A stretch of 64,000 nt of DNA from Brevibacillus brevis (GTDB lineage Bacteria > Bacillota > Bacilli > Brevibacillales > Brevibacillaceae): positions 4,062,501 through 4,126,500 of the forward strand of contig NZ_CP041767.1 in the NCBI RefSeq assembly GCF_022026395.1, written 5' to 3'. Below the pieces are notes generated by a model. The model was not told the origin of the DNA, searched no databases, and was given only the letters and a program-made list of their open reading frames with translations. Shown one piece after another: positions 37,398 through 54,786 of the stretch (position 1 is the stretch's first letter; every line of letters begins with the position of its first letter). A program made the translations under genes and the position numbers.

Positions 37398-37532
37398 TTA
37401 TTTCTTTAATTCTTCTGGAATTTCAGGTTTCCCCACGAATCCAAAGGATGCTGTAGTTACTGCCAGTACCGCAACGAATGAAGCAATTGCTGAAACATGC
37501 TTCGCTACGAACATCATCGCTTTATTTCTCAT
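37398..37532 (-). CDS. agrD: AgrD-like cyclic lactone autoinducer precursor with Ser at the ring position
   Basis: A 44-residue precursor of an autoinducing peptide. It has the three AgrD parts: an amphipathic N-terminal leader (MRNKAMMFVAKHVSAIASF...), a core, and an acidic C-terminal tail KPEIPEELKK matching the family tail PEIPEEL. Its start overlaps the end of agrB by 11 bases and has AAGGAGG upstream. In staphylococcal AgrD the core has Cys five residues before the cleavage point, forming a thiolactone. Here the aligned core is TTASFGFV, with Ser in that place and no Cys anywhere in the peptide. The expected signal is therefore an oxygen lactone, as known from Staphylococcus intermedius. 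The predicted ring is S-F-G-F-V; the leader cut site is not predictable. Confidence 0.83.
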   Translation of the reverse strand: MRNKAMMFVAKHVSAIASFVAVLAVTTASFGFVGKPEIPEELKK

Positions 37533-38067
37533 CTTTTCCACCTCCTTTCAGTGGAATTAGCGTCAGTGCTTGCACAAAAAAGGTTTTAACCAGTGTCTCG
37601 CTTTCTATGAAAAATAATGAACTAACGATGGTAATTGAGATGATCTTGAGGAGTACAGTCTGATTCTGTTTGAATAGTCGTGATTGCATTTCCATATCTT
37701 GCGGAGCAAAAAGTGCTACCAGGACTAATGTGATGATAATAATCGGGGTGACAAAATCATTAGGTAGAGGAATAAGAGGGATGAATACAGCTCCCACTAT
37801 ACTTGTCATGGTGCAGTATACAGACGATGAATAGTGAAATCCTCCTGAAAATTGACGTAGTATCAAAAATCCGGCCAATGTGAGTAATGTTCCCTGAAAG
37901 GTCCCTACCACGAGTGAAATGATGAGGCTAATCGTAATGATGAGCAGCATGTTTATGATGAGGATTAGCCCAAATTTCATGGTAGGGACTGACTTTGTTT
38001 CATGTGGATTGATCGACTTTAGTTGTATGGCTATTCTTTCAGCAAGAGTTTCAATCATATTCCCCAT
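37522..38067 (-). CDS. agrB: AgrB-like membrane peptidase, autoinducer maturation
   Basis: AgrB cuts the C-terminal tail from AgrD and cyclises the peptide in the membrane. This 181-residue protein has the expected size and several transmembrane helices (about 33-55, 57-70, 88-105, 109-122 and 145-165). The catalytic pair is present with correct spacing: His78 in RQFSGGFHYSS and Cys85 in SVYC, six residues apart. It overlaps agrD downstream and the upstream membrane protein gene by 17 bases, so the three are one operon. No agrA or full agrC is nearby. Confidence 0.9.
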   Translation of the reverse strand: MGNMIETLAERIAIQLKSINPHETKSVPTMKFGLILIINMLLIITISLIISLVVGTFQGTLLTLAGFLILRQFSGGFHYSSSVYCTMTSIVGAVFIPLIPLPNDFVTPIIIITLVLVALFAPQDMEMQSRLFKQNQTVLLKIISITIVSSLFFIESETLVKTFFVQALTLIPLKGGGKDEK

Positions 38068-46195: not shown

Positions 46196-46226
46196 AAACA
46201 AAAAGAAAACAGACACATGAGGTCTG
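46196..46226 (-). terminator. Intrinsic terminator of the RRNPP-peptide operon
   Basis: CAGAC (46210-46214) and GTCTG (46222-46226) pair around a short loop. On the minus strand TTTTCTTTTT follows. It lies 55 bp after the pro-peptide stop. Confidence 0.65.
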
Positions 46227-46280
46227 CTGATTGGTAGGAATTGTTATGGGCTTTATTGTGTTTATCGTATCTTGTTACAG

Positions 46281-46421
46281 TTATCCTTGTGGGTTATCGC
46301 TATACATAATAATAGGAGGTTTTTTAGGGAGCGACATGCTATTTGCACCAGTGGAAACAACAACTAGAAAGCAAGCTATTACCAGTGAAACTCTTGAAAG
46401 GACAGCTAAAAACTTCCTCAT
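46281..46421 (-). CDS. Signal-peptide pro-peptide, candidate RRNPP quorum-sensing signal
   Basis: A 46-codon gene directly downstream of the HTH/TPR regulator, three bases past its stop, with GAGGGG (inside the end of the regulator) as binding site. The product begins with a Sec-type signal sequence (MRKFLAVLSRVSLVIACFLV), followed by VVSTGANSMSLPKKPP and the C-terminus IIMYSDNPQG. This is the architecture of Phr, NprX, PapR and AimP precursors: export, then release of a short C-terminal peptide that re-enters the cell and binds the TPR receptor. By analogy the signal would be the last 5-8 residues, such as SDNPQG; the exact cut is not known. A terminator follows, so regulator and peptide form a two-gene operon. 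Confidence 0.8.
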   Translation of the reverse strand: MRKFLAVLSRVSLVIACFLVVVSTGANSMSLPKKPPIIMYSDNPQG

Positions 46422-46424
46422 ATG

Positions 46425-47708
46425 TTACCCCTCATTTCTTTTCCCGAATTTAATCATATTATATACTTCATTCAATTTTTTCAGAAGTTCCAAATCCATA
46501 TCTTTTTTTAATTCACAATGATGCATGTTTATCTCGACAGCGCAAGACATTATTTCTTCGATTCGATTGATTTTTCCGTAATACACAATACTTTGTAGAT
46601 AAGCATCCATGCCCTCATTGAAATGACCGCGACTAACAAGGAAGGCTCCTTTGTTTTTGTAATAATTCCCTATTCCTGAAAAGTTGTAAGCATTATTAAA
46701 ATCAAAAGAGAAGTTATGTTCCTCTGTGTTGATAACTTGTTCGATGGAGTTTACGTCATTAACGTAAAGTAATGCTTCTATTAGGTCGTTGACTCTATGG
46801 ATTAGATTGTTTTTTGTCGCTTCCCCTACACACTCCCTGAGCAATGGTATTGCTTCCTGATAATGACCAGTCTTTGACAAGATAATTGCACGTAGATACT
46901 TGGAGCGTTCCATGATAAAACGATAGCCTAACTTTTCGTACATTTCTATATGGGATTCCATGTCTTCAAATTTGCCCATTCGCATATAGCAATTACAAAT
47001 AGCCAAGGCAATGCGTTCCTTTATTTCATTGCTTGTAGAATCCTCGGCATGTCCCATTTTTCCAAGTTCAATACACTGCTCATATTTTTTCAAGTCATGT
47101 GCATCAAATGCCATTAAGTAGCAAAGGTTAATTCTCTCTTCATGACTCAAAAACTCTATGTAATACAACACTTCTTCCCCGTGACGAAAGGTTTCTTCGA
47201 GGCGGTGTGGGTTATTTCTTTCGATACGGTATCTATGAAATAAAGCTTTAGACATGTAGGGTTGAATTCCGCGAATCCGACAATATTGAGCAAGTTGGTT
47301 AAAGAGCACAAGTTTAATTTCTGTGTCTTCAACAGTGAGAGCAGTATTGTACAGCATCTCTACTGAGTCCTCAGTTTTTTCTTTTGGATTTTCGAGTATA
47401 CGGGAAACTATTTTTATAGTTAGGTCTTCATTTGGGAGTTGAATAGCTTCGAGCAACAAATCGTGTAAGCTATTGTGTCGTGTCTCATTAGAGATGTAAA
47501 GTTCGATTATCTCCTCATATTGTACATCTAAGGCTTCAAAGATGCGTAACAAGGTTATTAGTTCTGGTCGCTTTGTTTCTCCATTTTCTATTCTTGAAAT
47601 AGAGCTTTTGCTGACACTTGACTTTTCTTCTAGTTCAGAAAGAGTGAGGTTATTTTGGGTTCTGTACCGTAATATTATTTCGCCAATATGGTCTTCCACA
47701 TTTTTCAC
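46425..47708 (-). CDS. RRNPP-type quorum-sensing regulator (XRE HTH plus TPR)
   Basis: A 427-residue cytoplasmic peptide-sensing regulator. Residues 6-62 are an XRE helix-turn-helix (LTLSELEEKSSVSKSSISRIENG). The rest is alpha-helical with TPR-like pairs, such as YLRAIILSKTGHYQEAIPLL and GHFNEGMDAYLQSIVYYGKI, the fold of NprR, PlcR and Rgg/AimR-type receptors. The 46-residue secreted pro-peptide is encoded right after it. A Spo0E-like gene and a secreted protein gene are divergent and could be targets; an inverted repeat with TTCGACA/TGTCGAA arms lies in the 217-bp gap between the divergent genes. The host region is phage-derived, so a role in island or phage decisions is possible but unproven. 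Confidence 0.85.
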   Translation of the reverse strand: MKNVEDHIGEIILRYRTQNNLTLSELEEKSSVSKSSISRIENGETKRPELITLLRIFEALDVQYEEIIELYISNETRHNSLHDLLLEAIQLPNEDLTIKIVSRILENPKEKTEDSVEMLYNTALTVEDTEIKLVLFNQLAQYCRIRGIQPYMSKALFHRYRIERNNPHRLEETFRHGEEVLYYIEFLSHEERINLCYLMAFDAHDLKKYEQCIELGKMGHAEDSTSNEIKERIALAICNCYMRMGKFEDMESHIEMYEKLGYRFIMERSKYLRAIILSKTGHYQEAIPLLRECVGEATKNNLIHRVNDLIEALLYVNDVNSIEQVINTEEHNFSFDFNNAYNFSGIGNYYKNKGAFLVSRGHFNEGMDAYLQSIVYYGKINRIEEIMSCAVEINMHHCELKKDMDLELLKKLNEVYNMIKFGKRNEG

Positions 47709-47797
47709 TTAATTCACTCCTTTTCCATTTTATTACATATACGAAAAGCATTATATCAATAGGAGTTAGAACTATCAAATGCAAGTATTCGATCTGT

Positions 47798-47836
47798 TTC
47801 GACAATTTATGGCTTTTAAAATTATTTTGTGTCGAA
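47798..47836. promoter_or_regulatory. Inverted repeat in the divergent regulator/Spo0E promoter region
   Basis: TTCGACA (47798-47804) and TGTCGAA (47830-47836) are perfect inverted arms separated by 25 bp, so their centres are 32 bp (three helical turns) apart. A dimeric regulator contacting one face of the DNA would fit. It lies between the HTH/TPR regulator and the Spo0E-like gene. Confidence 0.45.
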
Positions 47837-47925
47837 CGTTGCATAAATGGAAAAATACTCGTTATTACGCAACAACTGGTATTCTTTGGAAGAAGCGAGG
47901 TGATGTAATGGGGGTGAGTTAAATA

Positions 47926-48147
47926 GTGAGAAGGCATGAAATGAGGAACGAAGACTTATTACAGAAGATTGATACCCTTCAATTCCAACTGAACGAAATT
48001 TTCAAACAGAAGGGAAGTCTAACTGACTGTGCTGTGGTAAGGGTGAGTCAAGAGCTTGATGATTACTTAGTGGAGCATCAACGTAGAATGAGAGATAAGG
48101 TGTCAGGCAAAGAGAACGTTACCTGTTATAGTCGAAGAGTAATCTGA
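47926..48147 (+). CDS. Spo0E-like aspartyl-phosphate phosphatase
   Basis: A 73-residue protein with the family layout of two helices joined by a short loop: ELN-type first helix (LLQKIDTLQFQLNEIFKQKG) and the signature SQELDDYLVEHQR in the second. The SQxLD motif is the Spo0E hallmark; the Asp contacts phospho-Spo0A. Such proteins dephosphorylate Spo0A~P and delay sporulation. The GTG at 47926 has GGGGTGAG seven bases upstream; ATG 47941 is an alternative. It is divergent from the quorum regulator and 20 bp ahead of a secreted protein gene. Confidence 0.8.
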   Translation: MRRHEMRNEDLLQKIDTLQFQLNEIFKQKGSLTDCAVVRVSQELDDYLVEHQRRMRDKVSGKENVTCYSRRVI

Positions 48148-48170
48148 TTAACAATTTAGGGGGTATTGTG

Positions 48171-49010
48171 ATGAAAAAGGCAGTTATGGCGACAATTTTA
48201 TCTTTAAGCCTACTATCAAGTGTACCTTTACCTACAATGGCATTCGCGCAATCTTCAGAGATCAGTGATGGTTGGGGAGGTGACTCACTCACACCTGAAC
48301 AGATTGAAAAGCTGCTGACGGATGTAGGATTAACTCGTACAGAATTGCAGCAATTTCCTCAAGAAATACTTGAAGAATTATTGAATAATGATGCTAAGAA
48401 ACTTGCTGAAAATACAAAAGAAATTAATATGAGTAAGTACCTATCTAAAAATAACCTCGCAACTTCAGGTGAGGAAGTAGATGGGGGATGGCTTGAACTT
48501 AATTCAAAAGCTTTTGAGGTTAAAAGTGATGACCGCGATAAAAAGAAGTTTTACTTTTATGGGAAATATGAATGGACAGATAGTCCAGCATTCGAATTAA
48601 CAGACGCTGTTAGTATTGGTTTCCCCGATTCTGCTGAATTCGTATTGCCGATGTCATCGAGAGGAAAAGTAAGAGAACATGAGACACGTTACTGCTACAA
48701 ACCTGAGAACAACTCGTCAGCAAAATGGGATTGTTCAACTGATACATCTCCTGAAGAGTGGGATAACGGAATGGGAGTTGGAAACATTATCGACTTAGAA
48801 GAGATGCCTAGTAATCTTGTCCATAAAGGGTATATTGGACAATATGTATATACTGAACGAGAATCTGGATATGTAAACATTAAGTTTGAGTATGGACACC
48901 AAGCAATTGATGTGGGAAATCCTGAGTTTGCTGTTTATCCTGCGGGATTATCCATTCAACCAGAAAGTGTTGATTATACGTTTGACTATGGTTTAGAATT
49001 TGAATGGTAG
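48171..49010 (+). CDS. Secreted protein of unknown function
   Basis: A 279-residue exported protein. The signal peptide (MKKAVMATILSLSLLSSVPL, cleavage near AFA-QSS) is followed by a helical segment (LTPEQIEKLLTDVGLTRTEL) and a mostly beta-rich domain with aromatic and acidic residues (FYFYGKYEWTDSPAFELTDAV). Two Cys (TRYCYKP and KWDCST) could form a disulfide. No family is recognised. AGGGGG precedes ATG 48171. It lies 23 bp after the Spo0E-like gene and may share its transcript and its control by the divergent quorum regulator. Confidence 0.72.
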   Translation: MKKAVMATILSLSLLSSVPLPTMAFAQSSEISDGWGGDSLTPEQIEKLLTDVGLTRTELQQFPQEILEELLNNDAKKLAENTKEINMSKYLSKNNLATSGEEVDGGWLELNSKAFEVKSDDRDKKKFYFYGKYEWTDSPAFELTDAVSIGFPDSAEFVLPMSSRGKVREHETRYCYKPENNSSAKWDCSTDTSPEEWDNGMGVGNIIDLEEMPSNLVHKGYIGQYVYTERESGYVNIKFEYGHQAIDVGNPEFAVYPAGLSIQPESVDYTFDYGLEFEW

Positions 49011-54608: not shown

Positions 54609-54684
54609 TGGTGATCCGGACTGGGTTCGAACCAGCGACCCCCACCCTGTCAAGATGGTGCTCTCCCAACTGAGCTACCGGATC
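54609..54684 (-). tRNA. tRNA-Val (GAC)
   Basis: A 76-nt cloverleaf with encoded CCA. The acceptor stem is GATCCGG/CCGGATC, the D-arm AGCTCAGTTGGGAGAGC, the anticodon loop TTGACAG (GAC) and the T-arm CTGGTTCGAACCCAG. It is the second of two tRNAs on the minus strand. An integrase remnant lies just beyond its 3' end, so this gene probably served as the attachment site. Confidence 0.95.
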
Positions 54685-54709
54685 ATGGGATATATGTGTG
54701 ATCGTTTAA

Positions 54710-54786
54710 TGGTGGGCCCTGTAGGACTCGAACCTACGACCAATCGGTTATGAGCCGACCGCTCTGACCAACTGAGCTAAGGGCCC
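54710..54786 (-). tRNA. tRNA-Ile2 (CAU, lysidine type)
   Basis: A 77-nt cloverleaf with encoded CCA. The acceptor stem is GGGCCCT/AGGGCCC, the anticodon loop CTCATAA (CAT) and the T-arm GTAGGTTCGAGTCCTAC. The body matches the Bacillus isoleucine tRNA that reads AUA after lysidine modification of C34, more closely than elongator Met tRNA. It is the first tRNA of the pair. Confidence 0.9.

Follow-up and report, generated by a model that had tools for sequence, protein, structure and literature searches.

The DNA analyzed here is a 64,000-nt stretch (the window; G000, positions 4,062,501–4,126,500) of a 6.16-Mb Brevibacillus brevis genome, and it holds a receptor gene (46425–47708, minus strand) followed by a propeptide gene (46281–46421, minus strand), which we call the focal pair. 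Comparison of sequences and analogy with related systems suggest, with a probability of about three in four, that these genes form a peptide quorum-sensing pair, chromosomally encoded and belonging to RRNPPA subfamily 08. The receptor would control a divergent spo0E gene and a re-imported peptide, (Y)SDNPQG, would switch it, tying dephosphorylation of Spo0A to cell density.

The receptor, 427 residues long with a GTG start, has an XRE-type helix-turn-helix (HTH) domain at residues 8–74 (Pfam HTH_3, E 9.8e-12) and about nine tetratricopeptide repeats (TPRs) at residues 78–420 (TPR_2, E 4.3e-5, under Pfam's own score cut-off). Exactly 3 bases (46422–46424) separate its stop codon from the ATG of the propeptide gene, whose ribosome-binding site, GAGGGG (46428–46433, minus strand), lies just before the receptor stop codon and is identical in three relatives. 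The 46-residue product (MRKFLAVLSRVSLVIACFLVVVSTGANSMSLPKKPPIIMYSDNPQG) has a secretion-type N-terminus and ends in IIMYSDNPQG. A first-pass annotation, made from the letters of the window, had described this arrangement and had the locus facing a Spo0E-like gene. Coordinates, open reading frames (ORFs), and Pfam agree with the former, and the latter is borne out by the frame at 47926–48147 (plus strand), divergent from the receptor and its likely target, which matches PF09388 (SpoOE-like; E 4.9e-10) and carries the motif SQELD.

Propeptide conservation and family membership

Receptor homologues were found at E ≤ 0.001 in 41 of the 60 genomes searched, the window's own included, the weakest being HTH-only matches. 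We retrieved 78 homologue regions, inspected their downstream DNA, and added relatives from phages, plasmids, Paenibacillus-type genomes, and viral contigs. A propeptide was counted where a secreted-like ORF started between −20 and +55 nt of the receptor end and had Pro at one of its last three positions. Among 76 intact family receptors with enough flank, which include near-copies and are not independent, 66 have a secreted-like ORF at the receptor end and 63 have one with the Pro as well, versus 5 of 1,520 dinucleotide shuffles. The other 13 comprise three with ORFs ending in DWD or IDW, four with ORFs starting further upstream, and six without an ORF. The pattern of a signal sequence and a short C-terminus, which the first-pass annotation had expected relatives to share, is thus conserved, and its view of an RRNPP-type receptor with its own propeptide stands.

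Three close relatives, L031, L032, and L147, whose receptors are 94–98% identical to the focal one, have the 46-residue ORF intact, with start codon and ribosome-binding site retained, and their peptides end in SDNPQG, SDNPEG, and SDNPQG, respectively. The focal receptor differs from these three at 26, 39, and 17 synonymous and 11, 26, and 9 non-synonymous codons. From this conservation, the mature signal is likely to be about (Y)SDNPQG (codons for YSDNPQG at 46284–46304, minus strand; for the hexapeptide SDNPQG, 46284–46301), with C-terminal release as in Alo and Phr by analogy from PMC7425212. In the L032 receptor, residues 161–240 carry an excess of substitutions relative to the focal receptor (15 synonymous and 13 non-synonymous codons in 80); co-adaptation with its SDNPEG peptide or a small recombination tract could be responsible.

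Across the family the commonest end is Y-x-x-D-P-G-[WYH], with Tyr at −7 in 33 of the 63 propeptides, Pro at −3 in 53, and DPG within the last six residues in 28. The focal member has DNPQG and is without a DPG motif; its D-N-P-Q-G end is a variant common to L033 (TDNPQG), L215 (TDNPQG), and L214 (VDNPQG). The signal had been described as unlike any known, and neither SDNPQG nor YSDNPQ was found in the literature text searched; the C-terminus is better regarded as a variant of the DPG-type signal published for subfamily 08. A second system of the same genome, L037 (G000:C1, ~768 kb), has two tandem propeptide-like ORFs, ending in YSDNPGH and YGTDPGW, and also a divergent spo0E.

RRNPPA cluster 8 of the Paenibacillaceae, called subfamily 08 in PMC12700828, has been defined computationally (PMC10075063; PMC12700828), with an architecture of an HTH domain and nine TPRs and a DPG motif reported as widespread rather than defining (PMC12700828); we found no experimental test of any member in the text of these two papers that was accessible. 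Plasmid DNA of B. laterosporus LMG 15441 holds one AloR-AloP system and one novel cluster 8 system, according to a single sentence of PMC10075063, on which our assignment depends rather than on those authors' sequence list. On plasmid pBRLA33 of this strain, RS22620 is the AloR (E 2.9e-165; 44–48% identical to AloR13 orthologues; then ...YEHGVGG), and its neighbor RS22615 fits the profile of the focal receptor family (E 1.7e-169) and is 36.5% identical to the focal receptor over 96% of the query. Because RS22620 is the AloR, RS22615 is left as the cluster 8 receptor of that paper, and we infer that the focal family is cluster 8. This published subfamily, and not NprR, PlcR, or AimR, whose gene order the first-pass annotation had cited, would then hold the nearest kin. 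The focal pair shares with it the receptor family, the HTH and nine-TPR architecture, an adjacent secreted propeptide, signals of DPG type, and occurrence on chromosomes, plasmids, and phages, and differs in ending with DNPQG instead of DPG and in its divergent spo0E. In an AlphaFold2 (AF2) model of the focal receptor (five sequences; predicted local distance difference test 86.5, predicted template modeling score 0.74), the HTH helices at 8–74 are followed by 18 further helices at 78–420, as would be expected for nine TPRs. The receptor is also a member of PHROG family 32768 (phrog_32768, E 1.7e-145), itself of unknown function, and the receptor of G596:C2 is 100% identical to that of pBRLA33. 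In the text accessible to us, subfamily 08 is catalogued by computation only. The focal locus offers a small pair that lends itself to experiment and has an obvious candidate target.

Membership of the focal receptor in AloR was considered and rejected. AloR13 orthologues were retrieved with the published primer at up to 3 mismatches, which gave loci in 16 of 75 genomes of one Paenibacillus-type genus, one of the 16 being a chance match; the exact primer had no match in the genome contigs, 13 of the 15 true orthologues having TTG in place of its ATG, and two other genome sets yielded one chance match each (1 of 398; 1 of 19). Four of the 16 loci then have ...SHGRGG, the published AloR13 signal (PMC7425212). 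Against the 16 retrieved sequences (15 of them AloR13 orthologues) the focal receptor had no phmmer hit and a best BLASTP E of 0.022, and the two families are alike at the profile-profile level alone (hhalign probability 92.6, E 4.6e-7). The Alo13 system resembles the focal one in its receptor-then-propeptide order, its HTH/TPR receptor, and its Spo0E-like neighbor, a frequent AloR feature, but Alo peptides are of HGxG type rather than D(P/N) type, and spo0E is downstream in Alo13 (PMC7425212) rather than divergent. The AimR-AimP arbitrium system shares the nine-TPR/HTH fold class and, possibly, the operator form discussed below (PMC9232636), but AimR controls aimX in phages, whereas the focal copy is chromosomal and faces spo0E. 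The PDB sequence matches listed for the focal receptor (22; best 60 of 153) are HTH domains, those of SinR and ComR among them, along with TPRs of generic or designed proteins; AimR is not among them, and NprR-NprX, PlcR-PapR, and Rap-Phr differ from the focal pair in that HTH/TPR-level sequence likeness alone appears among the matches listed.

Receptor-peptide pairing and possible cassette exchange

Over 5,671 receptor pairs, the N half (residues 8–190) is on average 10.6 points (standard deviation 6.9) more alike than the C half (residues 225–420), and peptide type follows the latter. In a set of 32 receptors, Asp at −5 with Asp or Asn at −4 occurs in 14 of 14 members of C-type 1, a clade of the C-half tree, and in none of the 18 others. 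The partial rank correlation with peptide likeness is 0.59 for the C half given the N half and 0.29 for the N half given the C half, each with 0 of 500 permutations as high; without near-copies (26 rows) the values are 0.52 and 0.24. These comparisons lend the pairing of receptor and peptide genetic support.

Seventeen receptor positions separate the peptide types (11 versus 14 rows), the arginine positions among them being 268 (R/K versus S/A/T) and 305 (R versus V/A). A held-out test used 28 further loci from three genomes, 25 of them usable after L202 (truncated receptor without a propeptide), L217 (no ORF), and L224 (a fragment) were dropped. The peptide has an acid at −5 in 12 of 12 loci with R305 and in 0 of 13 without it, and at the R305 loci R/K268 goes with Asp (5 of 5) and C/G268 with Glu (7 of 7). 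None of the 12 positives exceeds 69% identity to a known row, but some are near-copies of each other (L210/L211; L219/L220), and the L220 peptide lacks Pro. Among the 13 negatives, 8 share 92% identity or more with rows from which the rule was derived, and therefore only five (L216, L197, L200, L198, and L207) are new. Positions 252, 344, 408, and 421 split Asp from Glu as cleanly as 268 does, and label shuffles can also reach a clean position, so 268 was chosen for its charge, size, and place in its helix. The Glu peptide class arises twice on the tree. At residue 201, Phe or Tyr is present in 9 of 9 receptors whose peptides end in [QREL]G, and Leu in 14 of 14 with the end G[HY]; 1 of 300 label shuffles separates as cleanly, and the tree has about three changes between the two ends, only one of them forced.

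The peptide groove of TPR proteins lies at the first helices of the repeats. Going by the helix list of the AF2 model, positions 201, 231/234, 268, and 305 belong to four consecutive repeats and are in the first helix of each. Read as a code, Arg305 would demand an acid at −5, residue 268 would set the length of that acid (Arg/Lys for Asp, Cys/Gly for Glu), and residue 201 would set the peptide end (Phe/Tyr for ...xG, Leu for ...G-His/Tyr). The focal pair, with F201, R268, and R305 beside S-D-N-P-Q-G, obeys all three rules, and the locus points to the receptor residues and peptide positions expected to determine specificity. If the code is true, residue 201 should insulate the focal pair from the second, SDNPGH pair of the same genome.

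In several receptor pairs the difference between the halves is extreme: identities of the N and C halves are 94% versus 33% for L178 of phage Sundance and viral contig L179, 89–90% versus 36% for L037 and L051/L054/L056, 86–89% versus 39–41% for L127 and L119/L121/L122, and 87% versus 49% for L042 and L044. In the phage pair the DNA match breaks off at codon 215 and in the chromosomal pair at codon 217, returning no earlier than the end of the propeptide gene; in the L127 and L042 pairs it extends to codons 288–318 and 293. The proposed boundary is close to codon 216 for the phage pair and the chromosomal pair and further on for the other two. L178 and L179 (IMG/VR) have a common DNA-binding half and related Spo0E proteins, together with different peptide halves and the signals YTDNPGY and NDYDPGY. 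Compared with L187, AloR13 orthologues have 86–92% nucleotide identity over codons 1–160 in 14 of 14 cases, and from codon 181 to the end 91–96% in the 3 that share SHGRGG versus 54–57% in the other 11, in one of which (L194) no clear propeptide was recovered. The AloR13 locus of Paenibacillus-type g32 genomes (L182–L196) thus comprises several allele classes, with a constant N half and a variable C half and peptide (HGxG-type ends).

We give slightly better than even odds to the joint proposition that the code above holds and that the receptor's peptide-sensing half travels with the propeptide as a single exchangeable pherotype cassette, joined time and again to a DNA-binding half and spo0E target that stay the same. 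As a concept the cassette has a precedent, because AimR receptors are already published as chimeras of one DNA-binding half with different peptide halves (PMC9232636); in the accessible parts of the relevant literature we found nothing comparable said of subfamily 08 or AloR. In Rap-Phr, unlike the family considered here, receptor recombination was looked for and none found (PMC5199041). A mosaic origin of the focal receptor itself was rejected: the N- and C-half trees both put it beside L033, and therefore no swap is shown for this locus. If cassette exchange and the code hold, one could predict which receptors answer which signals across host, plasmid, and phage systems, often neighbors of Spo0E-like genes, and the family would provide a test of how a peptide language diversifies without breaking.

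The Spo0E-like gene as candidate target

In the mechanism we propose, export of the propeptide and cleavage near its C-terminus would yield about (Y)SDNPQG, which the cell would take up again, as expected of the RRNPP family, and the peptide would bind the TPR groove of the neighboring receptor, a pairing that has the genetic support described above. In its peptide-free state the receptor would bind the DNA between its own gene and spo0E, with activation of spo0E as the most likely effect, and the peptide would release it. At high density Spo0E would then fall, Spo0A~P would rise, and sporulation would be favored; this direction is modeled on AloR13 and AimR and could be reversed. The sign is taken as the most likely because Paenibacillus polymyxa AloR13 activates spo0E and its peptide shuts spo0E off (PMC7425212).

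A motif scan places a Spo0E-like gene within 1.5 kb of the receptor at 38 loci, co-directional and downstream at 27 and divergent at 11. On a tree of 111 receptors, spo0E is divergent in 11 rows and downstream in 26 (one, L042, at 2.4 kb). Every Paenibacillus-type, phage, and plasmid case among the 38, plus the annotated L115, has the downstream layout, and all divergent cases come from the focal locus, nine other loci of the window's genus, and L147, a metagenome contig labeled Bacillus sp. The divergent rows need three changes on the tree, two of them forced by well-supported branches. The divergent Spo0E proteins nonetheless form one lineage, 56–97% identical to one another and at most 43% identical to the nine co-directional ones compared. 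At L082 (G009:C1:738431-739792) a Spo0E domain is fused in frame to the C-terminus of a family receptor; the conserved KRP after the recognition helix is lost, no propeptide ORF was found at this locus, and a query across the junction is covered fully and without a stop in 1 of 39 family genomes. The fusion may act directly, in the manner of Rap, or be what a deletion left behind, and it suggests a route from a peptide-controlled transcription factor to direct regulation of the Rap kind. Neither such a fusion nor a divergent spo0E is named in the literature listings surveyed, a survey that covered PMC10075063 without its figures.

In the intergenic region, the receptor promoter, TTGATA-17-TATAAT with TG before the −10 (47750–47778, minus strand), has 11 of 12 consensus matches, and promoter-like sites as a whole are no commoner in the intergenic region than in shuffles (4 versus 6.9). 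A tentative receptor operator, the inverted repeat TTCGACA-N25-TGTCGAA (47798–47836, no strand assigned), is perfect in L147, has a 24-bp spacer in L031, and has one mismatch in L032; looser copies, TTCGACT-N25-TGTCAAA, occur in L037, L051, L054, and L056. Its possible 7-25-7 form is like the 6-25-6 AimR box, two 6-bp arms with a 25-bp spacer (PMC9232636). The arm pair (at most 2 mismatches, spacer 14–32) is found in 11 of 38 regions, against an average of 1.07 and no more than 4 over 100 mononucleotide shuffles, but the arms themselves derive from the window, and two groups of near relatives account for 8 of the 11 positives. A possible weak spo0E promoter, TTGCAT-18-TATTAC (47839–47868, plus strand), was placed by eye and not flagged by the scan; its −10 reads TATTAT in the three close relatives, and it follows directly after the right arm of the operator, which would suit activation.

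Other observations weigh against the proposed mechanism. The promoter scan's own best spo0E candidate, 47799–47828, falls inside the candidate operator, which would mean repression. A family-wide operator with a 25-bp spacer is unsupported: perfect 7-bp repeats with this spacer are not enriched upstream of spo0E (2 loci, both of the window's clade, versus a shuffled mean of 1.25), and for this reason the operator is kept as a local, tentative candidate. The fold match is unspecific as well: matches of the model to RapI, NprR, PlcR, and AimR are present and are no better than those to unrelated TPR proteins, LGN scoring as high as RapI and NprR, and the VIA-align fold listing has no RRNPP entry clearly above generic TPR proteins. 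Finally, 74 of the 111 tree rows have no recorded nearby Spo0E-like gene, a number that includes flanks ending at contig ends and comes from a motif scan that missed at least one annotated case (L115); Spo0E is therefore not a universal partner.

This last count, and the gap of only 20 bases between spo0E and the gene for a secreted 280-residue protein behind it, would also fit a genuine receptor-peptide pair whose main target is the receptor gene itself, genes elsewhere, or that secreted protein, with Spo0E a passenger. We think this unlikely: Spo0E accompanies the receptor in two orientations and in phages, plasmids, and chromosomes alike (although not beside the receptor on pBRLA33), the divergent Spo0E proteins are a single lineage, and a receptor-Spo0E fusion exists. 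Somewhat less plausible still is an arbitrium-like device of a mobile element, which would count copies of the element and control its lysogeny or spread, Spo0E steering host sporulation on the element's behalf. Relatives do occur in phages SecTim467 and Sundance, each then followed by Spo0E, and a plasmid has the same receptor-Spo0E order; viral contigs L179 and L180 carry a full receptor with a Spo0E-like ORF behind it (L178 is Sundance, and L177 is just a 166-residue frame); the module stands at different sites in genomes G019 and G002; and hijacking of sporulation by viral systems has been proposed (PMC10075063). Yet a single neighboring gene of the window has strong phage-regulator matches, no integrase was seen among the ORFs scanned, and the G019 and G002 modules lie among ordinary chromosomal genes, with a pair of insertion sequence-type transposases near the G002 copy (from ORF reading only).

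It is hard to sustain, finally, that the 46-residue ORF is fortuitous or encodes something else, such as a small membrane protein, while the receptor answers another ligand. The propeptide has no useful-score match in Pfam or NCBIfam (best NCBIfam E 0.19), as such a view would allow, but ORFs of this kind follow family receptors far more often than they arise in shuffles, and the peptide class tracks the receptor C half and residues 268 and 305; we regard the possibility as very remote. A quorum-sensing pair acting on the divergent spo0E remains our preferred reading.

Genomic setting and neighboring features

The secreted-type protein behind spo0E (48168–49010, plus strand), of unknown function and a possible operon partner, belongs to no clear family; L147 has a full-length relative, L031 a 68-residue fragment, and L032 a mere 66-bp match. 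At the other end of the unit, the terminator claimed by the first-pass annotation survives in part: a stem and T-run (46208–46228, minus strand; 7-bp stem, 3 G-C pairs) lie within DNA conserved in three relatives, but the stem is weak and the scan gave 1 candidate versus a shuffle mean of 1.3.

The same annotation had put the locus in a phage-derived island. This view is supported only in part: window DNA from 42.5 to ~54.2 kb is patchy across the genus and lies beside tRNAs, but no integrase or structural gene was found among the window ORFs scanned, a scan that covered part of them. From ~54.2–54.6 kb on, the DNA (tRNA-Val, tRNA-Met, pgpA) shows conservation throughout the genus, with matches to some of it in each of the 26 genomes searched (in G024 a match listed for the tRNA stretch only), and tRNA-Val and tRNA-Met (54609–54786, minus strand) mark the right border of the variable region. 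G019 carries the receptor-peptide-spo0E unit at 3.28 Mb and G002 carries it at 5.31 Mb, far from their tRNA-pgpA copies (0.66 and 1.96 Mb), and the unit is 93–94% identical over ~2.1 kb with mostly different flanks. The unit, which occupies differing chromosomal places in related species, therefore moves, but a phage origin of the focal copy is not established. A search of viral contigs with the focal receptor as query found no relative. In a PHROGs scan of 10 window ORFs, the clear matches were the receptor, the Spo0E gene (phrog_35355, E 1.7e-5), and a phage-type transcription regulator, perhaps a phage remnant (41214–41711, minus strand; phrog_1058, E 5.7e-18; phrog_36, E 8e-13); two ORFs matched weakly (E 3.6e-4 and 7.1e-4) and five had no match. 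An AgrB-like gene at 37522–38067 (minus strand; PF04647, E 3.4e-18) represents another kind of peptide-signal gene, unrelated to the focal pair and no more than 9 kb away.

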